This document shows, piece after piece, positions 5,272 through 44,876 of a stretch of DNA of 45,699 nt. The notes under the pieces are model-generated. The model saw only the letters and a list, made by a program, of their open reading frames with translations, did not search any database and had not been told where the DNA came from. The stretch lies in NCBI GenBank assembly GCA_016208165.1, contig JACQYL010000097.1, positions 1-45,699 of the forward strand, read 5' to 3'. This DNA comes from Deltaproteobacteria bacterium. Its GTDB lineage: Bacteria > Desulfobacterota > Desulfarculia > JACQYL01. Numbering within the stretch: the first letter of the stretch is position 1; each line of letters opens with the position of its first letter. Both the position numbers and the translations under genes were made by a program.

Positions 5272-5701
5272 CCGCTACATCGTCATCGTCGGGTGCGGGC
5301 GTCTCGGCGCTCATCTGGCCAATCAGCTCAGCCGCGAAGGCCATGCGGTCGTGGCGATCGATACGAATGAGGATGCATTCAATGACCTATCGCCCGATTT
5401 CAGCGGCTTTCGCGTACATGGAGACGCCATCCGGATGACGGTGCTGAAAGAGGCCAAACTCGACAGGGCGGACGTTCTTATCGCCACGACCCATGAGGAT
5501 AACGTCAACCTGATGGTAGCCCAGGTGGCCCGAAGGATCTTCCACGTTCCCCAGGTGCTGGCCAGGGTGTTCGATCCCAAAAGGGAGGAAGTTTACTCTC
5601 AATTGGGCATTGATACCATCTGCCCGATGTCCGTGGCTTCGGACATGTTCGTTCGAGCCGTTGCCGATAGAGCCGCCGGACAGGGAGGAGCACGGTCATG
5701 A
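5261..5701 (+). CDS. TrkA-N (RCK) NAD-binding regulatory subunit, single domain
   Basis: A 146-residue protein made only of the RCK_N Rossmann domain that gates Trk/Ktr potassium channels by binding NAD(H) or nucleotides. The dinucleotide-binding loop VGCGRLGAHLA is at about residues 10-20 and the strand-2 acidic residue in VVAIDTNE. The pattern HGDAIRMTVLKEA, then ADVLIATTHEDNVNLM, is typical of TrkA. The C-terminal RCK_C domain is absent, making it half the length of ordinary single-module TrkA. It overlaps the receiver-TPR gene by 11 bases and the next trkA by the ATGA overlap. The tandem suggests that the two TrkA proteins assemble as a mixed ring under the TrkH encoded next. Confidence 0.88.
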   Translation: MKNSRYIVIVGCGRLGAHLANQLSREGHAVVAIDTNEDAFNDLSPDFSGFRVHGDAIRMTVLKEAKLDRADVLIATTHEDNVNLMVAQVARRIFHVPQVLARVFDPKREEVYSQLGIDTICPMSVASDMFVRAVADRAAGQGGARS

Positions 5702-14514: not shown

Positions 14515-15063
14515 GGCGGGACCTCCCTTGCTTGAAACCGGATGGGCGGCACGGACCTCGTTCGGGTCCCCGGAGTCTCGGCGGGAATGATTCACCGAGA
14601 GAAGGCATTCTGCGGCGGCGGCCAAAAGGAGCTGAAACATACCCTATGTCCAACGGACGACACGCGGGCGCTCGATCGCACCCTACACGCCCATCAGAAA
14701 GCGGGACACACGCTCATTGATATCCATCGTATCTTCCACAAGCCGTTTCCCGGCTTCCGGACGAATCGAACCTAAAGAAATCGTATGAGCTTCATTTAAA
14801 TCATGTTACTCTGCATTTAACGTCCATAGCAAGGGATTTCGATGTCCCGTACCTATATGGAGGCAATGACCGTGATCCCGCAGGAGGAAATAGTATGAGT
14901 GACCGGAGACCATGATATGAAGGAAGCCCTCATGTGCGCGTGCAGAAGCAAGGCGGTTTGGGAGGCAACGCCGGGAGCATTGGCATGGCTTGCGGTCGAG
15001 GTGGGGAAATCCGGCCCGAAGAAGGATTATTGAATAGTACCTTAACGACAGGAGCCTTGAAAA
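14515..15063. other. Gene-free stretch upstream of the C25 peptidase
   Basis: No supported gene in about 550 bases. It should hold the divergent promoters of the C25 peptidase (minus) and of the following pseudogene (plus). A 38-codon frame with ATG at 14917 lacks any family resemblance. A CAGGAG site at 15049-15054 precedes the pseudogene start. Confidence 0.45.
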
Positions 15064-19202: not shown

Positions 19203-19334
19203 ACCCGAAAACAAATAGCGGGGCAATACACGCAGAATGTGCCGGCATCGCAAAGGGAGCCGCAGAGGCGTGGTACAATTCGCTCCCGCATACAACGAAA
19301 TCTTCACTGGACCACAACATCCGACGAGGGGCAG

Positions 19335-20720
19335 ATGACACCGAACGGACGGCGGCCATGGCGAAAATTGATGCGGATGCACCCCGCCATGTTGCTGGTG
19401 TCCAGTTTTCTGGCCGTCATCGTTTTGGGCGCCCTGCTGCTCCTGTTGCCCGCCGCCAGCACGTCCGGAAGCATATCCGTTATAAACGCCCTGTTTACGG
19501 CAACTTCAGCGGTGTGTGTGACGGGGCTCGTAGTGGTGGATACGGGGGCCTATTTCACCGCATTCGGCCAATGTGTCATTCTGTTCCTCATCCAGATCGG
19601 CGGTCTGGGTGTTATGACCATATCCGTGATGCTGTTTCGATTGGTGGGTCGGAACGTTTCGTTCAGACAACGGATGGTGCTTCAGGACGTTTTCGCTCAT
19701 ACGCCTAGGAGTGATATCTTTCAGATCCTGGGAACCATTTTCGCGTTCACGGCCATCGTCGAGCTTTCAGGTGTAGCCCTGCTTTTCATTCACTGGCACG
19801 GAGAGTATCCGGCCGGAAAAGCACTGTACATGGCCGTCTTCCATTCGATCTCCGCTTTTTGCAACGCCGGGTTCGCTCTCTTCGAGAACAGCATGATGAA
19901 CTACAGCGGCGACGTTCTGTTAAACCTGTCCATGTGCTCGTTGATCGTACTGGGCGGTATCGGATTTCCCGTGGTCTACGACATCTACTGCAACGTCCGA
20001 GACAGGAACGCCAGGAGATTCAGATTGGCGGTGCAGACAAAAACCGTGCTCGTAATCACCGCCGTACTGATTCTGGTGGGAGCCGGTGTGTTCGGCGTAC
20101 TGGAAGAGTCCCGGACCCTCTCCGGGAAATCCGCGATGGAATCGGCATTGGATGCGCTCTTCCAGTCCGTCACCTGCCGAACCGCCGGATTCAACACGGT
20201 AGACATTGCCGGTTTGAGCGACGCCACATTGGTCCTGATGATGTTCCTCATGTTTTTCGGAGCCTCGCCGGGCTCTTGCGGAGGAGGCGTCAAGACGACC
20301 ACCCTGGCCCTCCTTGCCGCGTTCAGTTGGAGCCGGATCCGCGGCGCAAGGCGTGTAAATATGTTCAAGAGGAGCGTTCCGCCTGAAACCGTGACCAGGA
20401 GCATGTCGTTGATTCTGGTATCGGTCGGGCTGATCGGTTTGGTCCTATTCATGGTTCTCCTCGATGATGCCTCCGGCCGTCCCGACAATGTTACGGCCTC
20501 CAATCACTTCCTCGCCCGCCTTTTTGAGGTTGTATCCGCTTTCGGCACGGTGGGCCTCTCCATGGGCGCCACGGCCGCGCTTTCCGCATGGGACAAGAGC
20601 TGGATCATCTTATTGATGTTCGTCGGCCGAGTCGGAGTATTGACGTTCTCGTACATCATAGCCGGAGGCCGGGCTGGAAACGGACTGGAATTCGCAGAGG
20701 AAAACGTTATGATCGGATAG
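19335..20720 (+). CDS. trkH: TrkH/KtrB-family potassium uptake channel subunit
   Basis: A 461-residue polytopic membrane protein. The ATG at 19335 follows GAGGGGC and opens MTPNGRRPWRKLMRMHPAML before the first helix; the frame is open further upstream without family resemblance. Pore-like repeats are visible as TSAVCVTGLVVVD, ISAFCNAGFALFE, TCRTAGFNTVDI and SAFGTVGLSMGAT. This pattern, with short N-terminus and VCVTGL, fits the KtrB-like branch of the superfamily better than the TrkH at 6373. A trkA follows after 12 bases, making a two-gene potassium-uptake operon. Upstream lies the transposase debris, so its promoter lies within about 130 bases of degenerate sequence. Confidence 0.9.
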   Translation: MTPNGRRPWRKLMRMHPAMLLVSSFLAVIVLGALLLLLPAASTSGSISVINALFTATSAVCVTGLVVVDTGAYFTAFGQCVILFLIQIGGLGVMTISVMLFRLVGRNVSFRQRMVLQDVFAHTPRSDIFQILGTIFAFTAIVELSGVALLFIHWHGEYPAGKALYMAVFHSISAFCNAGFALFENSMMNYSGDVLLNLSMCSLIVLGGIGFPVVYDIYCNVRDRNARRFRLAVQTKTVLVITAVLILVGAGVFGVLEESRTLSGKSAMESALDALFQSVTCRTAGFNTVDIAGLSDATLVLMMFLMFFGASPGSCGGGVKTTTLALLAAFSWSRIRGARRVNMFKRSVPPETVTRSMSLILVSVGLIGLVLFMVLLDDASGRPDNVTASNHFLARLFEVVSAFGTVGLSMGATAALSAWDKSWIILLMFVGRVGVLTFSYIIAGGRAGNGLEFAEENVMIG

Positions 20721-31497: not shown

Positions 31498-33192
31498 ATG
31501 GACGTCAATGTTCCGTGCCAGGCCGGATGCCCGGCGGCCACCAATATACCGGCGTACATCCGATGCCTGTTCGAGCATCGCTACGACGAGAGTTACCAAA
31601 TCAACCGGACGGCCAACCTATTACCGGGGGTTCTGGGACGCATCTGTTCACGTCCGTGCGAAGACCGATGCCGCCACGGAGAGCCCGAACTGGGCAAGCC
31701 GGTGAACATCTGCCACATCAAACGGGCTGCCGCGGACTTTCGTTCCGCGCCTGCGGGTCTCGAGCGCGTATCTCCGTCCATGGAGAAGACGATCGCCATC
31801 GTGGGAGCGGGTCCGGCGGGACTGGCCGCGGCTCATGACCTGGCCGCCATCGGCATGAAGGTGACCCTCCTGGAGGCTTTCGACGAGCCCGGAGGCATGC
31901 TGAAATACGGCATACCTCGATTTCGACTTCCCCGGGACGTCCTGAAGGCCGAGATTGAGGCCATTCTTGAACTGGGAATCACGCTGAAAACCGGGTGCCG
32001 GGTGGGAAGCGATATCTCGCTTCGGGAGCTTCTCGATCGGTATGACGCCGTTCTACTCGCTGCCGGATGTTATGTTCCAGGAGGGTTGGGTGTTCCGGGC
32101 GAGGAGCTGCCGGGCGTGCTGACGGGCCTGGACATGATGATGGACCTCGAGGCCCTCCGTTTACCCGAATTGGGAAGACGGGTGCTGGTCCTGGGGGCAG
32201 GGTTTACCGCCTTCGACTGCGCCCGAACGGCTCTACGCTCAGGGGCGGAAGACGTGGCCATCTGCATCCGGAGAACGGAAGAGGACTTTACCGTCACCGA
32301 AGACGAGATTTTTCAAGCCAAGAAGGAGGGGATCCGTATTCTGACGCTGATGACATCGAGCCGCATCCTCGGCCGGGATCGGGTGGAAGGGGTGGAGTTT
32401 CTCCGAACCCGACCCGCAGGCTTCGGACCGGACGGACGGCGCCGGATCGAGGCCATCGAGGGGAGCGGGTTCGTCCTGCCGGCGGATACCGTTGTCGTGG
32501 CTGTGGGGCAAAAGCCCGCACCCTTCCCTTTTCCCGGCGACGGGAATCGCGACGGCCGACTCGAGGTGTCCACCGATCAGGTTCGAACCTCCGTTTCCGG
32601 CCTATACGTGGCCGGTGATTACAAGACGGGACCTTCGACGGTGATCCAGGCCATTGCCGGCGGTCGGGAAGCGGCTGAACGCATCGCCGAAGACTTGACG
32701 GGAAGGGTCTTTCGTCGGACATGCGTTCGCCAGGAAGACACGAACGCCACGGACCGGCAACGGAGTTGGGACTATCTGCCCAGACAGGAGATGCCCACCG
32801 TGGAACCCGTGGGTGCGCGTCTCGAGGGCGGCTCCATGGAAGTGGAAACGGGCTTTTCCGGGGAACAGGCTTCCGAGGAGGCGAAACGTTGCTACCTGTG
32901 CTACCTGCACTACGAAATAGATATGAACCGATGCATTTACTGCCGGTACTGCATTGACGTAGCTCCCAGGGATTGCATTAAGCTCGTCAGCCGGATCCAG
33001 CTCAATGACGACGGAGCCGTGATCGGCCTTGAAGAAACCGCCGACTGGCGTGAAGTCAATGCCGTGGTCATCGACAACTCCCGCTGCATACGGTGTGGCG
33101 AGTGCGTTCGTGTGTGTCCGGTGGATTGTATATCCGTGACGCGAGTGGAACGGGTGGAACGAATCCATGAAGAAGGTGCGAACCATGCATGA
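31498..33192 (+). CDS. GltD-like NAD(P)H/FAD oxidoreductase with C-terminal 2[4Fe-4S] domain
   Basis: A flavoprotein of at least 564 residues. The N-terminal GltD-type iron-sulfur domain has NVPCQAGCPAATNIPAY and ICSRPCEDRCRHGE. The FAD site follows (IAIVGAGPAGLAAAHDLA, about residues 97-114), then the NADPH site (VLVLGAGFTAFDCARTAL), the second FAD motif (GLYVAGDYKTGPST) and a ferredoxin domain with CIYCRYCIDVAPRDC and CIRCGECVRVCPVDC. It probably passes electrons between the 2-oxoacid oxidoreductase encoded downstream and NAD(P). The annotated ATG falls inside the conserved first motif, and relatives begin earlier. The same frame upstream is protein-like back to about 31303 but broken by TGA at 31381, so the true N-terminus is uncertain. 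The 3' end overlaps the next gene by 8 bases. Confidence 0.85.
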   Translation: MDVNVPCQAGCPAATNIPAYIRCLFEHRYDESYQINRTANLLPGVLGRICSRPCEDRCRHGEPELGKPVNICHIKRAAADFRSAPAGLERVSPSMEKTIAIVGAGPAGLAAAHDLAAIGMKVTLLEAFDEPGGMLKYGIPRFRLPRDVLKAEIEAILELGITLKTGCRVGSDISLRELLDRYDAVLLAAGCYVPGGLGVPGEELPGVLTGLDMMMDLEALRLPELGRRVLVLGAGFTAFDCARTALRSGAEDVAICIRRTEEDFTVTEDEIFQAKKEGIRILTLMTSSRILGRDRVEGVEFLRTRPAGFGPDGRRRIEAIEGSGFVLPADTVVVAVGQKPAPFPFPGDGNRDGRLEVSTDQVRTSVSGLYVAGDYKTGPSTVIQAIAGGREAAERIAEDLTGRVFRRTCVRQEDTNATDRQRSWDYLPRQEMPTVEPVGARLEGGSMEVETGFSGEQASEEAKRCYLCYLHYEIDMNRCIYCRYCIDVAPRDCIKLVSRIQLNDDGAVIGLEETADWREVNAVVIDNSRCIRCGECVRVCPVDCISVTRVERVERIHEEGANHA

Positions 33193-34198
33193 CGAGCATT
33201 TCGTCATTATCGGAAACGGACCGGCCGGGAACCAGGCCGCATTGACATTGAGGCAAAAGGTTCCGGAAGCCCGAATCACCATAATCAGCGCCGAACACGA
33301 GCGCTTCTATCGGCCCCACCTCCTGCCCGACTTTGTTGCCGGGACTCTTCCGGAAGACGAGGTGTACGCGGCGTCTCTCGATCATTACCGGACCCACCGG
33401 ATCAAACTTCGCCTGGGACAGCGGGTTGTAGCCGTGGATTTCTCGAAGCGAAACGTCCTGCTCGATCACAAGGAAACGGTCCGTTTCAGCGGTTTGATTC
33501 TGGCGGTAGGCGGCAAACCGAGAATCCCCGAGCCGTTGCTCGTGTTCAGGGACCTGCTGCTGACCTTCAAAACCTTCTCGGACGCCCGCACATGGATCGA
33601 TCGCCTGCGCCGTGCGGATTCGGTATTGATCATAGGCGGAGATCTGACTTCCCTGGCCGTTACAAAGACATTGCTCCGGCTGGGAAAAGAAGTGCGCTTC
33701 GTGTTGAACGAGGACGCTTTCTGGCCGGTCCGCTGCAAGCCGGAAGTGTTCCAGGAGGCGGCCCACCGATTGAGTCTCCAGGGAGTGAAGGTTCTCGAGG
33801 GGCGAAAGCTCCGAAGCGTGACCCGCGTCAACGAGGAACTATTCGAAGTGACGCTCGACCGCGAACGATTCCACGTGGGTCTGGTGGGTGCGTTTTTCGG
33901 CCTCGTGCCCCATGTTCGCTTTTTGGCCCGCTCGGGTCTAACCATCGAACGCGGCGTGCTGGTCGACGAAACGTTGAACGCCGGCCTTGAAGGCGTATAC
34001 GCGGCAGGCGACTGCGCCCAGGTCTACCATGCGCACATCCGGGACTACTGGGTGAGTATCGGGCATGACAACGCGGTGAACCTAGGCCGCATCGCCGCCT
34101 TGAATCTATTGGGCGAGAAGATGAAAGCCGAATCAAAAGGCGAGAGCATCGTGTGCGACGATGTCCGAGTGAACACGTCCTGGTGGAGGGATTTCTGA
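33185..34198 (+). CDS. FAD-dependent pyridine-nucleotide oxidoreductase
   Basis: A 337-residue protein of the glutathione-reductase-like two-Rossmann family. The FAD motif FVIIGNGPAGNQAALTLR is at about residues 5-22, followed by YRPHLLPDFVAG. The second Rossmann motif is VLIIGGDLTSLAVTKTLLRLG at about 149-169, where the usual GxGxxG reads GGDLTS, so NAD(P) binding may be altered. The closing FAD motif GVYAAGDCAQ is at about 272-281. There is no redox-active CxxC. ATG 33185 follows GAAGG; ATG 33167 is an alternative. It overlaps the GltD-like gene by 8 bases and precedes the oxidoreductase subunit by one base, so it is a translationally coupled member of the operon. Confidence 0.85.
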   Translation: MHDEHFVIIGNGPAGNQAALTLRQKVPEARITIISAEHERFYRPHLLPDFVAGTLPEDEVYAASLDHYRTHRIKLRLGQRVVAVDFSKRNVLLDHKETVRFSGLILAVGGKPRIPEPLLVFRDLLLTFKTFSDARTWIDRLRRADSVLIIGGDLTSLAVTKTLLRLGKEVRFVLNEDAFWPVRCKPEVFQEAAHRLSLQGVKVLEGRKLRSVTRVNEELFEVTLDRERFHVGLVGAFFGLVPHVRFLARSGLTIERGVLVDETLNAGLEGVYAAGDCAQVYHAHIRDYWVSIGHDNAVNLGRIAALNLLGEKMKAESKGESIVCDDVRVNTSWWRDF

Positions 34199-34199
34199 T

Positions 34200-35975
34200 A
34201 TGTCCAAACTGGACATCACGGTGGAAGTGTGCGGCATGGCCGGAGACGGCACTATCGCAGCGGGCGGATTGATCAACGAGGGTATGTCCCGGGGCGGCCT
34301 TTCCGTTCTGGCCTTCGATTCCTATCCGGCCGAAATAAGAGGCTTCGGCCGATGCGTTACACGGTCCCGCATTGGACACGAGCGCCGAACGGCCCTCGAG
34401 GAACATACCCACGTGCTCATCTCTCTGAATGACGAGCAGTCCCTGTCCAGAGTACCGTTCCTTACAGACCTTTCGGCGGTGTTTTTCGACAATCGCCCCC
34501 CGGCTCCGGTGCCGGAGGAATCGTCCCTCGCGGCCCATGTCGAGCCCACCACGGCTCTGTTCGGCATGCCGTTCTCCGACCTGGCCGCTCAAGCCGCCGG
34601 AAGCGACCGGGGCAGAAACCTAGTGGCGTTGGGCGGATTCGCGGCCGTGTTCCAGGTCCCTTCGGAACTCTTCCAGCAGGCCATCGTCAAAAAGTTCAAA
34701 TCCAAAGGTCAAAAGGTCGTGGAGTCCAACGTTCGCTGCTTCCAGGCCGGATATGCCTATGCGCAGGAACGGTTCTCCGAACGTCTCCGGGATCCCATTT
34801 CGTTTCCTCCCCGGAAAGAAGGACCGGATATCGTCATGTTGTCGGGAAACACGGCCATTGCCGAGGGAGCATTGGACGCGGGTTTACATCTGTATTTCGG
34901 GTATCCCATCACTCCGGCCACGCCCATTATGGAGTATCTGGCCAAGAAGCTTCCGGAAAGAGGTGGAAGGCTGATGCAGATGGAAGATGAAATCGCTTCC
35001 ATCGGGGCTGTACTGGGCGGGTTTTTCGCGGGAAAACGTTCCATGACCGCCACCTCCGGTCCCGGATTCGCCCTCATGACCGAATTGATCACCCACGGGG
35101 TGATGTCTGAAACGCCGGCCGTGATCGTCGACGCTCAGCGAGGCGGTCCGGCCACCGGACTCCCCACCAAAACCGAACAATCGGATCTCCATGCCGCCGT
35201 GTTCGGCGGCCCCGGCGATTCGGCCCGCATTGTCATCGCTCCTACGGACGTTCTGGAATGCTACCACCTGACGATGAAAAGCTTTCAATTGGCGGAAAAA
35301 TACCAGATTCCCGTCATCGTGCTTACGGATTTCTTCCTGGACAACCGGGTGGAAAGCGTTCCGCCGCCGGTTGCGGGCGACGGCGATGGGAAGGACATGA
35401 CCGTGTACCCCGATCCCGACGCAAAAGAGCCGTACCGCCGTTTCAAGATCACGGAATCCGGCGTATCGCCGAGGGCGCTCCCCGGCATGGAAGGGTATAT
35501 ATTCACGGCCACGGGCCTGGAACACACCGAAAAAGGCCTGCCGGACTACACCCCCGAGAATCATTCGAAGATGACCGAAAAACGGTATCGAAAGCTCCGT
35601 TCGGCCCTCGAGGATCTTCCATCGCCCGTCGAGCAGGCGCCCGTCGGCCGGATGGATCTCGGGGTCGTGGGTTGGGGAAGCAATTTCGGATCCGTGCACG
35701 AGGCGGTAAACCGGGCCTGTGAACGGGGTCTCAAGGTGGGCGCGTTGAAGCTCACTTCGATCTATCCCTATCATGAAGATGCGATCCGAGACTTCATGTC
35801 CCGCTGCGACGAGGTACTCATCGCCGAACTGAATTTCGAGGGTCAGTTGGCCAATCTTATCGGTCATCTTCACAGGAAAGAAGTGATTCGATTGAACAGG
35901 GTCACGGGATTGCCCATGCCGCCGTCCGTTATATACAAGAAGATTCTCGAAATTTTGGGAGAAACCGATTCATGA
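34200..35975 (+). CDS. korA: 2-oxoacid:acceptor oxidoreductase, fused gamma-alpha subunit
   Basis: A 591-residue subunit of the KorA type. Residues about 1-190 are the gamma domain (VCGMAGDGTIAAGGLINEG, then FDSYPAEIRGFGRC). The alpha domain (about 205-590) begins DIVMLSGNTAIAEGALDAG and has the pyruvate:ferredoxin-oxidoreductase motifs YFGYPITPATPIMEYLA, QMEDEIASIGAVLGG, TATSGPGFALMTE and the GLPTKTEQSDL loop. With the TPP subunit next door it oxidises a 2-oxoacid to an acyl-CoA and CO2. No ferredoxin domain is present in either subunit; the clusters of the GltD-like protein may take that role. Substrate (2-oxoglutarate or another oxoacid) cannot be fixed from sequence. The gene overlaps korB as ATGA. 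Confidence 0.88.
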   Translation: MSKLDITVEVCGMAGDGTIAAGGLINEGMSRGGLSVLAFDSYPAEIRGFGRCVTRSRIGHERRTALEEHTHVLISLNDEQSLSRVPFLTDLSAVFFDNRPPAPVPEESSLAAHVEPTTALFGMPFSDLAAQAAGSDRGRNLVALGGFAAVFQVPSELFQQAIVKKFKSKGQKVVESNVRCFQAGYAYAQERFSERLRDPISFPPRKEGPDIVMLSGNTAIAEGALDAGLHLYFGYPITPATPIMEYLAKKLPERGGRLMQMEDEIASIGAVLGGFFAGKRSMTATSGPGFALMTELITHGVMSETPAVIVDAQRGGPATGLPTKTEQSDLHAAVFGGPGDSARIVIAPTDVLECYHLTMKSFQLAEKYQIPVIVLTDFFLDNRVESVPPPVAGDGDGKDMTVYPDPDAKEPYRRFKITESGVSPRALPGMEGYIFTATGLEHTEKGLPDYTPENHSKMTEKRYRKLRSALEDLPSPVEQAPVGRMDLGVVGWGSNFGSVHEAVNRACERGLKVGALKLTSIYPYHEDAIRDFMSRCDEVLIAELNFEGQLANLIGHLHRKEVIRLNRVTGLPMPPSVIYKKILEILGETDS

Positions 35976-36778
35976 AAACACCGGGTCCAGTGCTTGCCGA
36001 GCAAATTAGACGCATCGAAGATTCGAAGCTCTTCTCCTTTCGCTCCGGCCAGCTTCCCACGTGGTGCCCCGGATGCGGCTATTTCGGGATTCATGCGGGC
36101 ATCAACGCGGCGCTTTGGCAATTGGGCATTCCGCACCATAAGGTGGTCGTGGTTTCGGGCATCGGGTGCGCCGGACGCTATCCGTTCTTCTCGAACACGT
36201 ACGGACTCCACACGACTCATGGAAGATCCCTTCCCGTGGCCACGGGAGTCAAACTGGCGAATCCGGAGCTTACCGTGCTGGCTGTTGGAGGGGATGGCGA
36301 TGGACTGGGCATCGGAGGCGGGCACTTGCCGCATGCGTCCCGAAAGGACGTCAATATCAGCTATGTGTTGTTCGACAACTCCATTTACGGCCTTACCAAA
36401 GGGCAACCGTCGCCCAGTTCGCCGACCGGGTTCAAAACCAAGGTGTCTCCCTCCGGCACCACGGAACGCCCCCTGAACGCGACGCTGATGGCTCTGTCCT
36501 ACGGCGCCTCCTTCGTGGCCCGCCTGTTCGCGGGCGAACCCGGGCGGATCGGTGAAATCATGGCGCAGGGCATCCGGCACCCGGGTTTCTCCTTTTTGCA
36601 CGTGTACACGTCCTGCGTCACTTTCGATAAGGAATACAAGACCTGGGATCATCTGAAAGAATGGGTCCACCCCATTCCGGAAGGGCACGATCCCTCGAAT
36701 TTCCGCGCGGCTATGAATCTGGTGCTCGATGATGATTTCGCTACGGGGCTGGTTTATCAACGAGGGGGAAACGGTTGA
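35972..36778 (+). CDS. korB: 2-oxoacid:acceptor oxidoreductase, beta (TPP-binding) subunit
   Basis: A 268-residue thiamine-diphosphate subunit. It opens with SGQLPTWCPGCGYFGIHAGI, the iron-sulfur and TPP entry motif, then VSGIGCAGRYPFFSNTYGLH and HGRSLPVATGVKLANPEL. The TPP-magnesium motif GGDGDGLGIGGGHLPHASR ends in the usual NISYVLFDNSIYGLTKGQ. Length and order match KorB. It is the last gene of the four-gene operon beginning at 31498. In Azoarcus evansii a KorABC complex with a flavoprotein third subunit was described as a 2-oxoglutarate:NADP oxidoreductase, and this gene set has the same logic. Immediately downstream are dispersed repeats. Confidence 0.9.
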   Translation: MKTPGPVLAEQIRRIEDSKLFSFRSGQLPTWCPGCGYFGIHAGINAALWQLGIPHHKVVVVSGIGCAGRYPFFSNTYGLHTTHGRSLPVATGVKLANPELTVLAVGGDGDGLGIGGGHLPHASRKDVNISYVLFDNSIYGLTKGQPSPSSPTGFKTKVSPSGTTERPLNATLMALSYGASFVARLFAGEPGRIGEIMAQGIRHPGFSFLHVYTSCVTFDKEYKTWDHLKEWVHPIPEGHDPSNFRAAMNLVLDDDFATGLVYQRGGNG

Positions 36779-37116: not shown

Positions 37117-37455
37117 CTAAAATCGAAACTTCTCCGCGGGCCGTCGTTCGGGTACGTATTCGCGGGGAATTTTGCCCTCGTTCCATTCCTTGGACACGTA
37201 CAGATTGCAGTAGCAGCTTCCGTATTCCTTCACGTCCTGAACCCGATAGACACAGGGACAGATGATGTCTTTGTCCCATTCCCGATCTCCGGAGGAGAGC
37301 AGGCAGGGACAGCACATATACCCGTATCGTTCCTTGTTCGTAAGCAAGGCTTCCAACAGGTCGAAGGTCCGTTCCCTGTCCTCGTTGAAGTAGTAGCCCT
37401 TCGCTTCTTGAGTCTTTTTGAGCATTTCGTAGAGCTGCTCCACCTGGGTCGTCAT
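37117..37455 (-). CDS. ftrB: Ferredoxin:thioredoxin reductase catalytic subunit
   Basis: A 112-residue protein of the FTR beta family, which reduces a thioredoxin or glutaredoxin disulfide using a [4Fe-4S] cluster and reduced ferredoxin. The conserved cysteine pairs are MCCPCLLSSG, IICPCVYRVQD and GSCYCNLYVS, in the order and spacing of the family. The His that usually follows the first CPC is replaced by Leu. Length is normal for the stand-alone bacterial form without a variable subunit. The ATG overlaps the upstream glutaredoxin stop as ATGA. The stop lies about 5 bases from the REP-type repeats. Confidence 0.88.
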   Translation of the reverse strand: MTTQVEQLYEMLKKTQEAKGYYFNEDRERTFDLLEALLTNKERYGYMCCPCLLSSGDREWDKDIICPCVYRVQDVKEYGSCYCNLYVSKEWNEGKIPREYVPERRPAEKFRF

Positions 37456-37712
37456 AATCCGAGCGCCTCCTTGATCTGGTCTTCTTTGTATCCGACAATC
37501 ACCTTATCCCCGATGATGATCGTGGGAAACGTACACTTGGGATTGAACTTCTTGACGTCCTCAAGGATCGCGTTTCGCTCGTCTCCATCCAGCAGATCCA
37601 CATCGACAAATTCGTACTGGACCTCACAATCTCCCAACAGCTTCTTGGTGCTCTTACAGTGACTGCACGTACTGAGCGTATACACTTTTACCGGAACTTT
37701 CTGGTTGCTCAT
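37452..37712 (-). CDS. Glutaredoxin-like thiol redox protein
   Basis: An 86-residue thioredoxin-fold protein. The active-site motif CSHC is at about residues 16-19 (YTLSTCSHCKSTKK), the cis-proline is in CTFPTIIIGD and the GG-like glutathione loop is reduced to VIVGYKEDQ. AAGGAG precedes the ATG at 37712, which is preferred over an in-frame codon at 37730. The gene overlaps the FTR catalytic subunit by four bases. The pair therefore makes a ferredoxin-driven disulfide-reducing system in which this protein replaces thioredoxin as the substrate. Confidence 0.88.
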   Translation of the reverse strand: MSNQKVPVKVYTLSTCSHCKSTKKLLGDCEVQYEFVDVDLLDGDERNAILEDVKKFNPKCTFPTIIIGDKVIVGYKEDQIKEALGL

Positions 37713-37915
37713 GCAAGGGCTCCTTTCCACAGGCTCGCATGCGAATCAAGGAGATGGATCGCGCCCACCGAAATGAACCGCATACAAAATTCAATGAATA
37801 ACCGCAATCGCTCGTACAAAAACCGGAACCTTCCTTTTCGCCCGGCCAACCGAGGGATCGGCCGAACGCGGGACCGTGTTCCATCCTCGATCGAATCCCC
37901 GGGACGGGAGACCAT

Positions 37916-38845
37916 TCAGGGCTTAACCGTTGTGAACAGGGCGCCGCCTTCCCGGCGAAGCACTCCCCTGTGCGTCAACCCGTTCATGGTCTCATGATAC
38001 GTTGTTTCATAGTCGCCGTCAAAATATAGATCCACGGTTTCCCTGAACCAGACCGTTTTCATCAACGTGGAAAAGAACGTGCTTTCTTCAGCTTCGCCTC
38101 GCATAAGCAGTGTATAAACGGTAATCTTCTTGAGCACGTCCCACCCCATGCGCCTGCGATCGGAGATTCGGTCTCCGACCCGCTTCATGGCCCTGTCCAC
38201 GGCGCTTTGGAAATGCATAAACGGCTTTCCGTGCCCGGGGTAGACCCTTTCCACGTCCAGCTCACGAATACGATCGAGCGATTCCATCATGCGAAAAGGC
38301 GCAGTGGAACCCTCCACCCGCTCGGTCAACACGGCCGTGTCTTTTTCCCACAGCGTATCCGAGGATAGGAGCACCTTCTCATTGGGTTCGTACAGCACAA
38401 TGCCGTCCGAAGCGTGGCCGGGCGTATAATACACCTGGAACCAGTGAGGCCCCACCGCCAGTTCATCGCCATCATCCAGCGCTCCGGTGCAGTCGAAAAA
38501 GTCAGCTTCCTGGTGGAAGTAGTTCCACCACGTTGCCCAGGCATTCCGCGAATCGATGAAGCTTTTCCCGATTCGATGCAGCGCCACGCGGCATCCGGAG
38601 CGTTCCTGTATAAACCGGTTGCCCCCTATGTGATCGCAATGGGAGTGGGTGTTTACAATCAGGCGAACGGCGGCCGGATCCACGCCCAACTCACGGATCC
38701 GGCGTTCCGTTTCGGGGAACCCGCCCTTGTAAGCCGTGTCGATGAGCACCGGCTCCTCGCCCCGGTACACGAAATGGTTTCCATTGAGGTAGCCCCTTTC
38801 GATAAAGAACAGGTCTTCCAGGATTTCACTTACAGGTAAAGGCAT
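37916..38845 (-). CDS. Metallo-beta-lactamase-fold hydrolase
   Basis: A 309-residue protein of the MBL superfamily. The metal-binding motif THSHCDHIGG (HxHxDH) is at about residues 73-82, followed by a His in YYTPGHASDG, an Asp in LLSSDTLW and a His in VYPGHGKPF, giving a full dinuclear zinc or iron site. The C-terminal 80 residues (RRMGWDVLKKITVYTLLMRG to the end) look like the winged-helix tail of the LACTB2/RNase-like group. ATG 38845 follows AAGGA at good spacing; an in-frame ATG at 38866 is an alternative. Substrate unknown; thioester hydrolysis or RNA processing are options. It is monocistronic. Confidence 0.85.
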   Translation of the reverse strand: MPLPVSEILEDLFFIERGYLNGNHFVYRGEEPVLIDTAYKGGFPETERRIRELGVDPAAVRLIVNTHSHCDHIGGNRFIQERSGCRVALHRIGKSFIDSRNAWATWWNYFHQEADFFDCTGALDDGDELAVGPHWFQVYYTPGHASDGIVLYEPNEKVLLSSDTLWEKDTAVLTERVEGSTAPFRMMESLDRIRELDVERVYPGHGKPFMHFQSAVDRAMKRVGDRISDRRRMGWDVLKKITVYTLLMRGEAEESTFFSTLMKTVWFRETVDLYFDGDYETTYHETMNGLTHRGVLRREGGALFTTVKP

Positions 38846-39106
38846 TCTCGAGATCCTTATCGGCATGGTTTTTAAGTTCTACTTTATTCATTCGGACGTC
38901 CTTTGCAAGCCTCCTTTTGAAAGAACGATTGCAGAAGGATTGAAGCCGGAATCCGAACCATGAGGAATCGCCCGGCTACAAAAAAGGCTGTTCATCGAAC
39001 GCGAAGCCTTGAAACATAGGGAGCGGCCGGATAAAATCAGATGCTACTAAAAGGCGTTCAGGGATTCCTCTCGCGAGGAATTCCGCGCACATTAAAGGAT
39101 TACCGT

Positions 39107-40390
39107 ATGCTTTCCGTCGGAGTTTTGGTCGATCTCAAGTGGGGCCCCGAGGCCGGAGGCCAGGTGAAATGCTGGGAACGGTTCGCGGAAGCCGCCGAAG
39201 CTTTTCGGAACGAAATCGATCTTACCGTCCATTTTCAGGGCGACGGGCCCAAGGCCTACATGCTCTCCGAAAATGTGCGCTTTGTGGTCCTCCCGCCTGC
39301 TCTGAGCACGTCCCGATTCCGGTCCATGGACGGGGTTGCGGATCATACGGACCTGGCGCCTTTCCATCCGAGGTTGCTTCCGTACTTGAAACAGTATGAC
39401 GTCATCCATACGACCGACGCGTTTTTCGCCATGGCCAAGACGGCTCTTATCGCGCGCCGTCTGCACGGCATCCCTCTGGTCACTTCCATACACACGGACA
39501 CCCCGAAATACACCAAAATATATTCGGCTCATATCATACGCAACATCACACAAAACGGGGCCCTCGGTCGCCTGCTGCTGGACCGGTTTCACCTGGACGA
39601 TGTTTTTTCGTCCTTTATGAGCCGGAAGTTGGAACGGTTCGCCAAGCGCTGCCGTTGGATCTTCGTGTCCAAGGACGAAGACCTGAGACACATGGCCCGG
39701 CTCTTTCCGGGCAAGGGCGTTTCCTTCCTTCGCAGGGGCATTGACACCAAACGGTTCCACCCCCGTCTCCGTGACAGGCATCGGTTGCAGGAGGCCTTTG
39801 GTATCGCGGAAGACCGTTTTGTCGTGATTTTCGCGGGGAGGGTGGACCAGGGTAAAAACGTCATGACCCTGGCCCGAGCGGCGCGCCTGCTCCTGGATCA
39901 GGACGAACACATACACGTCCTGTTCGTGGGCGAAGGCGCTCAGAAAAGCGCGATCGGACGCTTACTCGGCGACTCGGTCACCCTGCCCGGCGTGGTGCAC
40001 CATTCAACCCTCGGGTGGCTCTACGCCAGCTCGGACGCCCTGGCGTTTCCGTCGCGCATCGAGGTGTGTCCCAACGTGGTTCTGGAAGCCAGGGCATCCG
40101 GCCTGCCGGTGCTGGTCCCTGCCGAAGGAGGCGCGGCGCAGCTCGTGAAAAACAATGGACAGGACGGCGTGTTGGTTCCCTTGGACCTTCCCCAAACCTG
40201 GGCCGCGGAAATCCGGAACCTGATCCACGATCGGGACCGTAGCAAACGCATGGGTGAAGCGGCGCGCAAGATCATGAAGTCGCAGTGGCCGACCTGGAAA
40301 GAGGTTTTCGAAAAGGATCTGGCGCCGGTCTGGCGAAGAGTGGCTAGCTTCTTCGGCAAGCCGCCCCGGGGTTATGGAAGGCGGCCATAA
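39107..40390 (+). CDS. GT4-family glycosyltransferase
   Basis: A 427-residue GT-B glycosyltransferase. ATG 39107 follows AAAGGA and opens the first beta strand (MLSVGVLVDLKW); a start at 39041 adds an unlikely tail. The N-terminal Rossmann half includes GGQVKCWERFAEAA and VTSIHTDTPKYTK. The C-terminal nucleotide-sugar half has RRGIDTKRFHP, VIFAGRVDQGKNV, HVLFVGEG and the GT4 acceptor motif EVCPNVVLEARASGLPVL. No membrane helix is obvious. It is followed by a PIG-L deacetylase and a radical SAM gene, suggesting a shared pathway on a glycosylated small molecule or lipid. Confidence 0.87.
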   Translation: MLSVGVLVDLKWGPEAGGQVKCWERFAEAAEAFRNEIDLTVHFQGDGPKAYMLSENVRFVVLPPALSTSRFRSMDGVADHTDLAPFHPRLLPYLKQYDVIHTTDAFFAMAKTALIARRLHGIPLVTSIHTDTPKYTKIYSAHIIRNITQNGALGRLLLDRFHLDDVFSSFMSRKLERFAKRCRWIFVSKDEDLRHMARLFPGKGVSFLRRGIDTKRFHPRLRDRHRLQEAFGIAEDRFVVIFAGRVDQGKNVMTLARAARLLLDQDEHIHVLFVGEGAQKSAIGRLLGDSVTLPGVVHHSTLGWLYASSDALAFPSRIEVCPNVVLEARASGLPVLVPAEGGAAQLVKNNGQDGVLVPLDLPQTWAAEIRNLIHDRDRSKRMGEAARKIMKSQWPTWKEVFEKDLAPVWRRVASFFGKPPRGYGRRP

Positions 40391-40609
40391 CGCATCCCGT
40401 TTTTTTCGCGCCCACCCTGTGAAACAGCATGTAATGCTTCCAAGAAACGACGTTTTCAGCTAAGCTCAGCCGCGGTCATATATCGACGCAGGGTGTTATC
40501 CTATGCCTTTCGAGTCGGAGACGGATTCCTCCGACCAGGCGGAAGCAACGCACCTCATCCTATTCCGAGCCTGGGAGCGCCGGGCTTGCCAAGTCGTAGC
40601 TCTGCGAAG

Positions 40610-40637
40610 CCTGGCCCCAGCTCGGCTCTGGGCCAGG
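40610..40637. repeat. GC-rich hairpin ahead of the PIG-L gene
   Basis: CCTGGCCC at 40610-40617 pairs with GGGCCAGG at 40630-40637 across a 12-base loop. The surrounding bases (CCTGGGAGCGCC at about 40571, then CCAAGTCGTAGCTCTGCG) resemble a dispersed repeat. It lies in the leader of the deacetylase gene and could affect read-through from the glycosyltransferase. Confidence 0.45.
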
Positions 40638-40676
40638 AAGGCTGAAGGGGCGCACTCTCACCATAACTTGCGCCGG

Positions 40677-41453
40677 ATGGAGCATCCCTTGGTTGGAAAA
40701 CGCATTCTGATCCTGATTCCCCATCCGGACGACGAAGTGGTGGGATGCTGCGCGGCGGTCGGCCGGGCGCACGCCGGAGGCGCCAAACTGTTCGGAGCGT
40801 ATCTGACCACCGGCGTACCCGCGCGGGAATGCTTGTGGATATGGCAGCGGGCCCATTACGACCGGAAGGTGCGGCAGAGGAAGGATGAAGCCTTGTCCGC
40901 CGCCAAGCTCTTGGACATCGAACCCGCTTTTTTCCGGGACGTCCCCACGCGCACGTTGAAAACGTGGCTGAAGGACACCCGGGAAGCGTTGATTCAGGCC
41001 ATTCAAAAATACGAGATCGATGTCCTCTGGGCTCCGGCCTACGAAGGCGGCCATCAGGACCACGACACGGCCAACTTTCTGGCAAGCACGCTCCTGGGAT
41101 TCGCCGAAGTCCGGGAATTCAGCGAATATCATTTTTTCAACGGTAAGGTGACGAGCCAGCAATTTCTGTCTCCCAATGGGACAGAAGACAGCATCATGCT
41201 CGAAGGCCGTGAACGCGAGCTCAAGCGACGAGCGCTGGCCTGCTACCGGTCCGAGCGGGGAAACCTGCGTCACATCCGCACCAAGCAGGAAGCGTTTCGT
41301 CCTCTGGCCCCATACGACTACACGCGGCCGCCCCACGGAGGGAAGCTGTTTTACCAGCGTTTTCAATGGGTTCCCGGACACCCGAGAATCGATTATGTCC
41401 GGCCGGAAGAGGTTTGCAACGCGTTTTCGGAGTTTTCGGCCGGGCGGAAATGA
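40677..41453 (+). CDS. PIG-L (LmbE) family N-deacetylase
   Basis: A 258-residue zinc hydrolase that removes acetyl groups from GlcNAc-type substrates. The signature HPDDE lies in ILIPHPDDEVVGCC at about residues 13-26, and the third ligand His in APAYEGGHQDHDTANFL at about 121-137. The ATG at 40677 begins the family domain; the frame is open back to 40503 through a repeat-like leader and has no good ribosome-binding site, so the start is not certain. It lies 286 bases after the glycosyltransferase and 72 bases before the radical SAM gene, all on one strand. Confidence 0.85.
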   Translation: MEHPLVGKRILILIPHPDDEVVGCCAAVGRAHAGGAKLFGAYLTTGVPARECLWIWQRAHYDRKVRQRKDEALSAAKLLDIEPAFFRDVPTRTLKTWLKDTREALIQAIQKYEIDVLWAPAYEGGHQDHDTANFLASTLLGFAEVREFSEYHFFNGKVTSQQFLSPNGTEDSIMLEGRERELKRRALACYRSERGNLRHIRTKQEAFRPLAPYDYTRPPHGGKLFYQRFQWVPGHPRIDYVRPEEVCNAFSEFSAGRK

Positions 41454-41525
41454 TGTCCGGACAAAGCCGGACCGGTCGGCCCGATGCGGGTTTCCTAACC
41501 CTGGCGGAGTTGACGGGACGTAAGC

Positions 41526-42683
41526 ATGCACGGGGGGAACACTTTTGAACACCTTGGGTCAATGAGCAAACCCATGCGACCACGCGCACGTAACCGGTTT
41601 CGCAACACCGCGACCATGGTGGCCCATGGAGGCCCGGCCATCTGCAACATCGCCGTAACGAATCGGTGCAACGCGAGGTGCGACTTCTGCAGCTACGCCG
41701 TGGACAAGAAACGCGTGCGGCAGGGCCAGCTCATGGGGTATGACGACTACCGTCATGCCATCGATATATTGCATGGGAGGGGCGTTCGTTACATCACCCT
41801 TTCCGGAGGAGAACCGTTTCTTCACCCGCGACTTTACGACATGGTGGCGTACGCGGTGGGAATAGGCATTCGGCCTTCCGTGTGCACCAACGGATCGAGG
41901 CTAGGCCCGGAAGCGGTGGAAGCTCTCCGGAAAAGCGGGCTCAAGACCTTGATCGTGTCCATGGACGCCTCGTCCGAGGAAGCGCACGAAAAGAATCGGG
42001 GGTTGCCCGGCGTGTGCGGGCGCATCCGTGAATCCACCCGGCTCTTGAACCAACTATCCATCGAGTGCGTGGCGTCGGTTACCATCAGCAGGCTGGTCGA
42101 CGATTACGACCGGTTGGCCTCCTTCCTCGAGGATTTGGGTTTCCGGACCGTCACCTTTTCCTACCCCAAACGAAGCATCGGATCCTCGTCGCTGGTATTT
42201 TCGGATACTTCTTCCTTGCTGCACCGGACGCCCGCGGAACTCGCCGGCGCGTTTCACGACATTCTCCGCCTGAAATCCCGTTTCCGGGTGCTCAATCCTT
42301 CGGAATCGCTCAAGGATATGCTCCGCCTGCAACGGGGCGAACGTCAGGTCTTTCCCTGTTTTGGAGGCTACAAGTATTTCTTCCTGGATTGGAATCTGGA
42401 TGTATGGCGATGCGACATGTGGCCGTCCAAAATGGGCTCCATCCATGACTTCGAGCACGTTCCGTTCATTCGGGACCATTGCACGATGTGCATGAGCGAC
42501 TGCTATCGCGATTCCAGCGTGCTGCTGAATTTCGTGGTATCGTTGGCGGACGGCCTGACCCTCTTGAAGCGCGGAAAACCTGTAAAGGCTCTCGAAACCG
42601 TGTTCACAAGGAGCGCGTTACGGTCCGTCAAGGCCCTGCTGGAAGAATGGGGAACGCTCCGAAATCTTTCTAAAACGCCCTAA
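41526..42683 (+). CDS. Radical SAM enzyme with C-terminal Cys-rich (SPASM-like) region
   Basis: A 385-residue enzyme. The radical SAM cluster motif CNARCDFC (Cys 48, 52, 55) follows ICNIAVTNR, and YITLSGGEPFLHP is the glycine-rich SAM motif. The barrel continues with VSMDASSEEAHEKNRG. Extra cysteines occur in VFPCFGGYKYFF, VWRCDMWPSKMG and HCTMCMSDCYRDS, in the pattern of auxiliary clusters of SPASM/twitch or HpnH-like proteins. The start could also be the ATG at 41562. It is the third gene of the glycosyltransferase-deacetylase set and may modify the same sugar-linked product, but the reaction cannot be predicted. Confidence 0.85.
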   Translation: MHGGNTFEHLGSMSKPMRPRARNRFRNTATMVAHGGPAICNIAVTNRCNARCDFCSYAVDKKRVRQGQLMGYDDYRHAIDILHGRGVRYITLSGGEPFLHPRLYDMVAYAVGIGIRPSVCTNGSRLGPEAVEALRKSGLKTLIVSMDASSEEAHEKNRGLPGVCGRIRESTRLLNQLSIECVASVTISRLVDDYDRLASFLEDLGFRTVTFSYPKRSIGSSSLVFSDTSSLLHRTPAELAGAFHDILRLKSRFRVLNPSESLKDMLRLQRGERQVFPCFGGYKYFFLDWNLDVWRCDMWPSKMGSIHDFEHVPFIRDHCTMCMSDCYRDSSVLLNFVVSLADGLTLLKRGKPVKALETVFTRSALRSVKALLEEWGTLRNLSKTP

Positions 42684-42698
42684 CATGGAGGTTTGGTT

Positions 42699-43394
42699 AT
42701 GGAATTGCTGGAAGCCATTCGAGTCCGAAAGTCCGTTCGAGCCTATAAACCCGATCCGGTTTCCCTGGACACGCTCATGGACTTGTTGAACGCAGCCGTC
42801 CGAGCGCCTTCGTCCGTGAATTCCCAACCCTGGGAGTTCTTCCTGGTCATGGGAGAAGCCCTCGACGCCCTACGAAAGGCCTACGTGGAACAGGTTCGGT
42901 CGGGAATTCCTCCTCACCCTGAAGTGGCCATACCCGAACAGAAAGGCACGGCGCCCGGACTCGGAGGCGTGTATCGTGACCGCCAGGTAGCTTTGGCCAA
43001 GCAAATGTTTCGACTTCTGGGGATCGGCAAGGGCGAAAAAGACAAGATACAGGCCTGGACCGAATCCATGTACCGGTTTTACGATGCGCCCGCGGCCGTC
43101 GTCCTGGTCACGGACAAGTCGCTCATCAGCGGTTGGCCCCTGGTGGATACCGGCATCATGGCCGGGACCTTGGCCTACGCCGCCTTGGAATTCGGGCTGG
43201 GGACCTGTATCATACGCTCCATCGTGGACTATCCGGAGCAACTTCGAGCCGTTGTCGGGATCCCGGATTCCAAACAGATCGTCGTGGGTATGGCCATCGG
43301 CTATCCGGACTGGAACGCGCCGGTCAATGAACTGAATACGGAACGCGAGGCCCTCAAGAACCTGGTCACTCTGGTCGATCGACCGAAATCCTGA
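42699..43394 (+). CDS. Nitroreductase-family flavoprotein
   Basis: A 231-residue FMN enzyme. The N-terminal FMN-phosphate motif RVRKSVRAYKPDPV and AAVRAPSSVNSQPWEFFLV are typical. The second flavin region is DAPAAVVLVTD with ALEFGLGTCIIRSIVDYPE, and the closing VVGMAIGYPDW is standard. ATG 42699 follows GGAGG at seven bases. Members reduce nitro groups, quinones or enones with NAD(P)H; the true substrate is unknown. The gap to the radical SAM gene is 15 bases, so it is likely co-transcribed with it. Confidence 0.88.
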   Translation: MELLEAIRVRKSVRAYKPDPVSLDTLMDLLNAAVRAPSSVNSQPWEFFLVMGEALDALRKAYVEQVRSGIPPHPEVAIPEQKGTAPGLGGVYRDRQVALAKQMFRLLGIGKGEKDKIQAWTESMYRFYDAPAAVVLVTDKSLISGWPLVDTGIMAGTLAYAALEFGLGTCIIRSIVDYPEQLRAVVGIPDSKQIVVGMAIGYPDWNAPVNELNTEREALKNLVTLVDRPKS

Positions 43395-43433
43395 TCCGGG
43401 TGTTAATTGGATGATTGCAAAGAAGGAGCACAC

Positions 43434-44876
43434 ATGACCGATTTGGCGGAAGCATTCGGCAGTTACGATGCGTTAGGTTTGGCGGACCTGGTGCGAAGCA
43501 GGGAGGTGACGCCCGGCGAGCTGGTGGAAATCGTCGTCGAGCGCATCGAACGGGTCAATCCGGCGCTCAACTGCGTTGTCCTCAAGACCTACGATCTGGC
43601 CAGGCAACTGGCCCGGGGGCCTCTTCCGGAAGGCCCGTTCACAGGCGTGCCGTTTCTCATGAAGGACCTGCTCACCATGTACGAGGGAATTCCGACCACG
43701 GGGGCATGCCGGTTTCTCAAAGATTACGTCGCCACCGAAGACAGCGTGGTGGTCCAACGCATGAAGCGGGCCGGCCTGATACTGGTCGGAAAGACGAACA
43801 CGCCGGAGCTGGGTTCCAGCGGGTCCACGGAACCGGTCTTGTTTGGACCCACGCGCAACCCCTGGAACGTGGAGCATATCCCCGGCGGGTCGAGCGGCGG
43901 TTCCGCCGCGGCGGTGGCGGCTCGCATCGTTCCGCTGGCCGACGGGAGCGACGGGGGCGGCTCGATTCGCATGCCTGCGTCCTGCAACGGACTGGTTGGA
44001 CTCAAGCCCAGCCGCGGGCGGGTTCCCCTGGGTCCCCACTATGGGGATGGCTGGTACGGCATGGTGGTCCTCAACGGTCTGACCCGCACGGTGCGCGATA
44101 CGGCCGCCTTTTTGGACGTGATCTCGGGCCCCGTGCCCGGCGATCCGTATCAGCCCGCGGCCCCGCGACCTCCCTTTCTCGAAGCCCTGTCTTCGGACCC
44201 GGGGCGGCTTAAGATCGGATTCACGACCAAGTGCATGTCCGGGGACGCCGTTCATGCGGAATGCATTCGGGCGGTGATGGATACGGCCAAGACCTGCGAG
44301 GATCTCGGCCACGACGTGGTGGAGATGACATTCGACTTTGATTTCAACCTGGCTCTCAAGACCTTCAACCGGGCGGCCCGGGTCCTATCCACCATGGACC
44401 TCGATCGTTTCGAGGGGCTCGTGGGAAGACCGGCCACGGCGGAAGAGTTCGAGACCATCTCATGGCTCTTGATACAACTGGGGAAAAAGGAAAGCGGCGT
44501 TCAACACGCCAAGGACATCGAAACTCTGCGATTCATCGGACGACGGATTGCGGCCGATTGCGAACCGTTCGACGCGGTCCTCACACCCACGGTGTATCAA
44601 CCGCCGGCGAAGCTGGGCGTGTACGACATGAACTGCGCTCCGGAAAAGGCCGCGGAATTCGGCAAACTCATGCGGGCCGGCATTGCGTTCACCATTCCGT
44701 ACAACATCAGCGGCCAGCCGGCCGTCTCCTTGCCCATGCACTGGACCGGTGACGGACTGCCCGTGGGCGTGCAATTCGCCGGCCGGTACGCGGACGAGGC
44801 CACGCTGCTGCGCCTGGCCCGGCAGCTCGAGGAGGCGCGACCCTGGATCCAGAGGAAGCCGCCGGTGTGCGCGTAA
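43434..44876 (+). CDS. Amidase-signature hydrolase
   Basis: A 480-residue enzyme of the amidase signature family, cleaving C-N bonds of amides. The catalytic triad is visible: Lys77 in GVPFLMKDLL, cis-Ser153 in PGGSSGGSAAA and nucleophile Ser177 in DGGGSIRMPA. AAGGAG lies five bases before the ATG at 43434. The sequence around IPYNISGQPAVSLP and GLPVGVQFAGRYADEATLLRLA at the C-terminus is typical of linear-amide and cyclic-dimer hydrolases such as NylA. It is not evidently GatA, since no gatB or gatC is nearby. It follows the nitroreductase by 39 bases. Confidence 0.9.
   Translation: MTDLAEAFGSYDALGLADLVRSREVTPGELVEIVVERIERVNPALNCVVLKTYDLARQLARGPLPEGPFTGVPFLMKDLLTMYEGIPTTGACRFLKDYVATEDSVVVQRMKRAGLILVGKTNTPELGSSGSTEPVLFGPTRNPWNVEHIPGGSSGGSAAAVAARIVPLADGSDGGGSIRMPASCNGLVGLKPSRGRVPLGPHYGDGWYGMVVLNGLTRTVRDTAAFLDVISGPVPGDPYQPAAPRPPFLEALSSDPGRLKIGFTTKCMSGDAVHAECIRAVMDTAKTCEDLGHDVVEMTFDFDFNLALKTFNRAARVLSTMDLDRFEGLVGRPATAEEFETISWLLIQLGKKESGVQHAKDIETLRFIGRRIAADCEPFDAVLTPTVYQPPAKLGVYDMNCAPEKAAEFGKLMRAGIAFTIPYNISGQPAVSLPMHWTGDGLPVGVQFAGRYADEATLLRLARQLEEARPWIQRKPPVCA

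Follow-up and report, generated by a model that had tools for sequence, protein, structure and literature searches.

A radical SAM family very probably acting in hopanoid headgroup biosynthesis, and its tandem arrangement with a GT4 glycosyltransferase and a PIG-L de-N-acetylase in a member of the Desulfobacterota

Hopanoids are bacterial relatives of cholesterol and are widely used as biomarkers in the rock record. Several steps in the formation of their side chains and headgroups have no known gene. Here we describe three consecutive genes, encoding a GT4 glycosyltransferase, a PIG-L/LmbE-type de-N-acetylase and a radical S-adenosylmethionine (SAM) enzyme, on a contig of 45,699 nucleotides from a Deltaproteobacteria bacterium (assembly GCA_016208165.1, contig JACQYL010000097.1). 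This contig in its whole length (C97) is referred to as the window, and the genome to which it belongs (G000) comprises 5.69 Mb in 142 contigs and is 95.5% complete. The radical SAM gene very probably encodes an overlooked enzyme of composite hopanoid headgroup biosynthesis.

The closest described system is the branch leading to the bacteriohopanetetrol (BHT) cyclitol ether. According to the accessible part of the source (PMC12583986), HpnI transfers N-acetylglucosamine (GlcNAc), HpnK carries out the de-N-acetylation and HpnJ a radical rearrangement. The window presents a glycosyltransferase, a de-N-acetylase and a radical SAM enzyme in the same chemical order, and the family of its radical SAM enzyme physically adjoins HpnJ and HpnK in many carriers. 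However, the GT4 of the window is not HpnI, its PIG-L is not HpnK, and its radical SAM protein belongs to a different family from HpnJ and has no B12-binding domain, which is present in the HpnJ part of a fusion protein described below. HpnH, the adenosylhopane synthase, is also a radical SAM enzyme of hopanoid synthesis, but the window protein scores far below the HpnH cut-off (TIGR03470; 26.5 bits at 41640-42146, cut-off 225.05) and the genome encodes a separate HpnH. The main features of the locus are as follows.

39009..39037 (+): sigma-70-like promoter match TTGAAA-17-TAAAAT; consensus match only (10/12), preceding the probable start codon of the GT4 (39107)
39107..40390 (+): GT4 glycosyltransferase; the open reading frame (ORF) begins at 39041, but translation more likely at Met23 (39107); the EX7E motif spans 40061-40087
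40677..41453 (+): PIG-L/LmbE-type de-N-acetylase; the ORF opens at 40503, the core begins at Met59 (40677); HPDDE at 40722-40736, HxxH at 41052-41063
41526..42683 (+): radical SAM enzyme with C-terminal auxiliary-cluster domain, of the family neighbouring HpnJ and HpnK; Pfam match 5.9e-21, GGEP present
41667..41690 (+): CxxxCxxC (C48, C52, C55) of the SAM-binding cluster, from motif reading and alignment
42357..42503 (+): five invariant cysteines, C278-x17-C296 ... C319-x2-C322-x3-C326, for an auxiliary cluster plus one extra Cys, in 52/52 sequences

The three genes lie in tandem on the plus strand (39107-42683), and ORFs, Pfam matches and motif reading show their catalytic motifs to be intact. 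A preliminary description of this DNA had proposed such a same-strand set, including the extra cysteine of the radical SAM enzyme and the order transferase, deacetylase, radical SAM, and in these respects it was correct. The first protein is a member of GT4 (Pfam Glycos_transf_1, 4.7e-27, 95 bits for a gathering score of 26.4; EX7E present), and the second is a PIG-L de-N-acetylase with both metal motifs (PF02585, 2.1e-21, 77.2 bits for a gathering score of 28.2). Because the promoter-like site ends at 39037, Met23 is a likelier start of the GT4 than 39041; four sigma-70-like sites were found in the region, where 2.1 are expected. The gap between GT4 and PIG-L measures 112 bp (289 bp to the PIG-L core start as set in the analysis), and that between PIG-L and the radical SAM gene 72 bp. 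Terminator-like sites are at chance level, with 5 found and 6.7 expected.

A radical SAM family beside HpnJ and HpnK

Of the 98 related genomes examined first, a single one (G068) gave a strong match to the radical SAM protein of the window (42% identity, E 5.8e-81), encoded there between homologues of HpnJ and HpnK. Throughout the phylum, orthologues at E<=1e-25 occur in 19 of 395 genomes, and in 17 of the 18 carriers other than the window's own genome the genes follow one another on one strand in the order HpnJ, radical SAM, HpnK. The exception, G436, has the radical SAM gene alone; its hpnJ, hpnK and hpnI genes form a group on a different contig. HpnK scores over its cut-off in 42 of the 395 genomes, among them all 18 other carriers. 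The hypergeometric P for this overlap is about 1e-18, a value uncorrected for relatedness among the genomes, which belong to three families and cannot count as independent. HpnJ, HpnI and HpnK were all found over cut-off in the 11 tested among these 18 carriers (11/11).

The same association extends across phyla. A contig scan with an 18-sequence alignment, which needs exact peptide patterns, returned 239 relatives, of which the best 80 were kept; this set overlaps with that of the phylum, several contigs being common to both as judged by their equal lengths. A search of plasmid sequences gave no matches. These 80 loci belong to Acetobacteraceae, Roseomonadaceae, Azospirillum, Chelatococcus, Nostocales, Acidobacteriota, Verrucomicrobiota, Planctomycetota (including Scalindua) and Desulfobaccales. 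In 66 of them, at least one hopanoid gene is located no more than 3 kb from the radical SAM gene: HpnJ in 30, an HpnL-like gene in 25, HpnK in 20, HpnI in 11, HpnH in 7 and an HpnN-like gene in 3. The HpnL neighbour in locus L109 passes the NCBIfam cut-off (221.3 bits, cut-off 195.65), and the HpnN-like neighbour in L167 is below it (499.1 bits, cut-off 751.85). In L167 (3-3834) and L173, both from the rumen, the radical SAM gene directly precedes the HpnN-like transporter gene. In one locus, L095, HpnJ and the radical SAM enzyme are fused in a single ORF of 835 amino acids, the HpnJ part of which scores 725.5 bits for a cut-off of 577.6.

Whole-genome searches in 43 carrier genomes drawn from the 80 loci detected HpnJ over cut-off in 39, HpnH in 38 and HpnK in 31, the last rising to 40 at E<=1e-20. 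Among the four carriers without HpnJ over cut-off, G453 shows a fragment (530 bits) where a contig ends and L098 one at the end of its locus, while HpnJ was not detected in two genomes from the rumen. The radical SAM gene is therefore an accessory one, found in a subset of HpnJ carriers. Being a conserved neighbour of HpnJ and once fused to it, the enzyme offers a concrete candidate for a headgroup step that has gone unrecognised.

No NCBIfam model covers this family: the best score of the window protein is 73.2 bits for a cut-off of 500, and the 52 aligned members all match a similar range of generic radical SAM families, with a best E-value no better than 8.6e-28 among the 25 commonest of 74 families (cut-offs refer to the first member only). 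The second-best NCBIfam score of the window protein, 72.9 bits, was obtained with BlsE (TIGR04466), far under the cut-off of 400, and the prokaryotic viperin model (NF038283) gave 67.2 bits for a cut-off of 180; both identities were rejected. The family is recognised by eight cysteines, all of which the window protein possesses. The five auxiliary ones are present in 52 of 52 members and those of CxxxCxxC in 51, the single exception being a gap where the supplied sequence stretch was short. No mention of this enzyme was found in the accessible parts of the open-access literature on hpnJ and radical SAM enzymes, in which the terms "hopanoid", "radical SAM" and "SPASM" appear nowhere together in one paper, most subscription papers being outside its scope.

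The AlphaFold model of the radical SAM protein is good (pLDDT 87.6, pTM 0.86), and its best fold match, identified with Foldseek and VIA-align 2, is BlsE (7vob; Z 25.2, rmsd 3.3 over 290 residues, 20% identity, residues 35-382). This is followed by SkfB (Z 21.4) and the viperins (about 21). BlsE is a cytosylglucuronate decarboxylase of a nucleoside sugar pathway which, in the accessible part of PMC3715490, decarboxylates a glucuronoside. A BlsE-like fold suits a sugar or cyclitol substrate, although a shared fold shows no function. The aminoglycoside radical SAM dehydrogenase BtrN is among the sequence relatives of the window protein (1.2e-8); BtrN and NeoN are absent among the 50 fold matches listed, which excludes nothing. 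The auxiliary cluster pattern of BtrN consists of four cysteines. Four of the five invariant cysteines of the family would hold one auxiliary cluster, leaving one as a candidate hydrogen donor, comparable to Cys249 of the aminoglycoside radical SAM epimerase NeoN (PMC10991966, accessible part).

In the phylogenetic tree, the window protein clusters (100/99) with sequences from Syntrophaceae (L152), one member of the Verrucomicrobiota, Acidobacteriota and Pseudomonadota, and stands on a long branch (0.81). The sequences of the Desulfobaccales, which belong to the same phylum as the window, are placed elsewhere. Horizontal transfer of the gene is possible on this topology. In the Syntrophaceae relative, from a bog genome, the radical SAM domain and a CDP-alcohol phosphotransferase (PF01066) similar to inositol-phosphate synthases are fused in one protein, with a long unassigned region in the middle (L152:2446-4848).

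Proposed role of the gene set and competing explanations

In the window's own genome, HpnJ and HpnK are found neither beside the radical SAM gene nor, over cut-off, elsewhere; as regards HpnJ, this sets it apart from nearly all other carriers. Its contig C54 carries a squalene-hopene cyclase, HpnA, HpnH and an HpnG-like phosphorylase together. HpnA (474.5 bits, cut-off 367.65) and HpnH (about 429-429.8 bits, cut-off 225.05) are intact, and the phosphorylase, with 85.6 bits to HpnG, is below cut-off. HpnI reaches at best 39.1 bits for a cut-off of 310 (TIGR03472), HpnJ about 192.5-192.8 bits for a cut-off of 577.6 (TIGR03471), and HpnK has no match (TIGR03473). The best HpnJ-like protein is a B12-binding radical SAM protein (L183:3806-5317, contig C78) encoded in the vicinity of further radical SAM genes and of ketosynthase-like ones; no obvious hopanoid gene was seen in this neighbourhood, whose translations were judged by eye. 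The relative G478, the genome of L152, has a cluster of HpnJ, HpnK, cyclase-like, HpnA-like, HpnH, HpnG-like and HpnI genes, the cyclase-like and HpnA-like ones judged by eye. Its HpnI (304.4 of 310) and HpnK (220.3 of 232.6) fall just under the cut-offs, so near misses occur in this lineage.

As the same three chemistries are present in the window as in the known route, the simplest account is that the GT4 replaces HpnI and the PIG-L replaces HpnK in this genome, for which we would put the chances at even or slightly less. The complete explanation, which joins a hopanoid headgroup radical SAM enzyme with a GT4/PIG-L replacement pathway, we regard as evenly poised between right and wrong. According to this explanation, the GT4 would supply GlcNAc transfer in place of HpnI, the PIG-L would supply de-N-acetylation in place of HpnK, and the radical SAM enzyme would act on the glucosaminyl lipid so formed. 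SAM would be cleaved at the CxxxCxxC cluster, and a hydrogen atom would be abstracted from the amino-sugar or aminocyclitol headgroup. The reaction could then finish either as an epimerisation, a hydrogen being given back with the invariant C326 as candidate donor, or as an oxidation, an electron being passed to the auxiliary cluster. Taken further, the enzyme, distributed over at least six bacterial phyla and working with HpnJ, might make an epimeric or oxidised aminocyclitol headgroup, and the lineage of the window might have rebuilt the branch with GT4 and PIG-L and no HpnJ; this more specific picture is tentative and rather unlikely to hold in full. The four named producers of later-eluting isomers of the BHT cyclitol ether among cultured Alphaproteobacteria (Roseiarcus, Rhodoplanes, Nitrospirillum, Novosphingobium) are not represented among the best 80 of the 239 loci. 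A cultured carrier, Chelatococcus reniformis, has already been grown for lipid analysis in a survey, so the question is directly testable.

Several observations weigh against the hopanoid reading or parts of it. There is no hopanoid gene within 3 kb in 14 of the 80 loci, and the two rumen carriers (L167, L173) have no match to HpnH, HpnJ or HpnK at the limits used. In the phylum, 24 of the 42 HpnK-positive genomes have no radical SAM gene, and the enzyme is therefore not required for the known cyclitol-ether route. The proposed replacement by GT4 and PIG-L concerns a single genome, and no second triplet was found. Among the 80 loci, none has a PIG-L neighbour, and the GT4 matches are limited to three very weak ones (18-22 bits), all more than 6 kb away. 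In the window's own genome, besides the HpnJ score noted above, the hopanoid genes and the radical SAM set are on different contigs, and the only squalene-hopene cyclase (L034:11683-13472, on C54) is broken into two frames in the assembly. The two pieces match residues 4-182 and 254-624 of the G068 protein, with about 71 residues missing between them and no Ns. The break may reflect decay or an assembly fault. As the cyclase is broken, the organism may no longer make hopanoids, and this is the strongest evidence for that possibility.

In a recruitment scenario, the hopanoid-headgroup radical SAM enzyme would have been taken over in this genome, together with GT4 and PIG-L, for another glucosaminyl lipid or polyol as hopanoid synthesis decays. 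The broken cyclase, HpnI, HpnJ and HpnK all under cut-off, the separate contigs and the long branch of the window protein fit this scenario, and the phosphotransferase fusion in L152 hints at headgroups other than HpnI products. It is nevertheless unlikely in our view: HpnA and HpnH are intact and well over cut-off, the break in the cyclase may stem from faulty assembly, and none of the catalytic cysteines has been lost from the radical SAM protein. Alternatively, GT4 and PIG-L could be ordinary surface-glycan or glycolipid genes that merely adjoin a hopanoid radical SAM gene. The preliminary description had suggested examining the conservation of the neighbourhood: the radical SAM family is widely found beside HpnJ and HpnK, and the GT4/PIG-L/radical SAM triplet was found in no other genome. 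This absence would be expected of a chance adjacency, as would the lack of probe genes in the 1.5 kb on either side of the few PIG-L relatives in the phylum, which at E<=1e-15 occur in 4 other genomes of the 395. However, the genes follow one another closely in the same orientation, with 72 bp from PIG-L to the radical SAM gene, and the activities of GT4 and PIG-L are those missing from the genome's hopanoid set, which makes a chance adjacency quite unlikely.

A role for the radical SAM enzyme in the hopanoid side chain itself, as an epimerase for BHT stereoisomers or in a step such as the conversion of ribosylhopane to BHT or the formation of bacteriohopanepentols (BHpentols), appears improbable. 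Both of the latter steps are without a known gene in the accessible part of PMC12583986, and Scalindua, which the accessible part of PMC8102298 gives as a source of a BHT stereoisomer, carries the radical SAM gene (L150, L160). However, the gene tracks HpnJ and HpnK and not HpnH alone, and it is fused to HpnJ. Chelatococcus reniformis carries it (L127), yet BHpentols are not found in Hyphomicrobiales in the accessible part of PMC12583986, which argues against a BHpentol-forming enzyme. As for an epimerase making BHT-34R, Methylocella palustris is likewise reported to contain BHT isomers (PMC8102298, accessible part), and its genus has neither hpnJ nor hpnK (PMC12583986, accessible part), the radical SAM gene not having been searched there.

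The preliminary description had envisaged an unknown sugar-linked metabolite, either a new glycolipid or a low-mass thiol cofactor. The glycolipid is the better supported of the two through the hopanoid link, and its class is not wholly unknown, as the radical SAM family is tied to the known pathway for composite hopanoid headgroups. Nor is that pathway an unrelated one, an outcome that had been named as speaking against the proposal: hopanoid synthesis itself runs through HpnI, HpnK and HpnJ chemistry (PMC12583986, accessible part). A cofactor of the bacillithiol or mycothiol type shares the same order of chemistry, and a glutaredoxin gene and one for a ferredoxin-thioredoxin reductase catalytic chain lie 1.4 kb upstream on the other strand. 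All the same, the scores are far under the respective cut-offs. The GT4 gives 46.5 bits to BshA (TIGR03999, cut-off 273.7) and 81.5 bits to MshA (TIGR03449, cut-off 462.5), and the PIG-L gives 33.4 bits to BshB1 (TIGR04001, cut-off 182.5). In addition, the radical SAM family is associated with hopanoid genes, and a thiol product is accordingly very improbable. No BshC- or MshC-like ligase is present among the eight proteins scanned at 37117-44876, the rest of the genome not having been searched for them.

Neighbouring genes and other observations in the window

Two further genes follow the radical SAM gene on the same strand.

42693..43394 (+): nitroreductase-family flavoprotein, 9 bp after the radical SAM gene; possibly co-transcribed, not a conserved partner
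43407..44876 (+): amidase-signature protein, 12 bp after the nitroreductase gene; possibly co-transcribed, not a conserved partner

A flavoprotein and an amidase had been described as following the set, and both are indeed there; in the 80 loci, however, no such gene was found at a distance of 3 kb or less from the radical SAM gene. In L152, a nitroreductase-like ORF with a weak match of 21 bits (4881-5540) adjoins the fused radical SAM gene on the opposite strand, which may be compared with the nitroreductase gene that directly follows the radical SAM gene in the window.

On the minus strand upstream of the set (37117-37730), the ferredoxin-thioredoxin reductase catalytic chain adjoins the glutaredoxin, which among NCBIfam models matches the YruB family best; related models include selenoprotein (UXX-star) families. 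Further upstream, at 31498-36778 (+), the window encodes a glutamate-synthase-like flavoprotein with ferredoxin clusters, another flavoprotein, and the alpha and beta subunits of a 2-oxoacid:acceptor oxidoreductase, the alpha subunit scoring over its subfamily cut-off. A large C25 (gingipain-type) peptidase with a propeptide domain is encoded at 12058-14640 (-), and two separate genes for TrkH potassium transporters are located at 6373-7845 and 19239-20720 (+) on this 45-kb contig.

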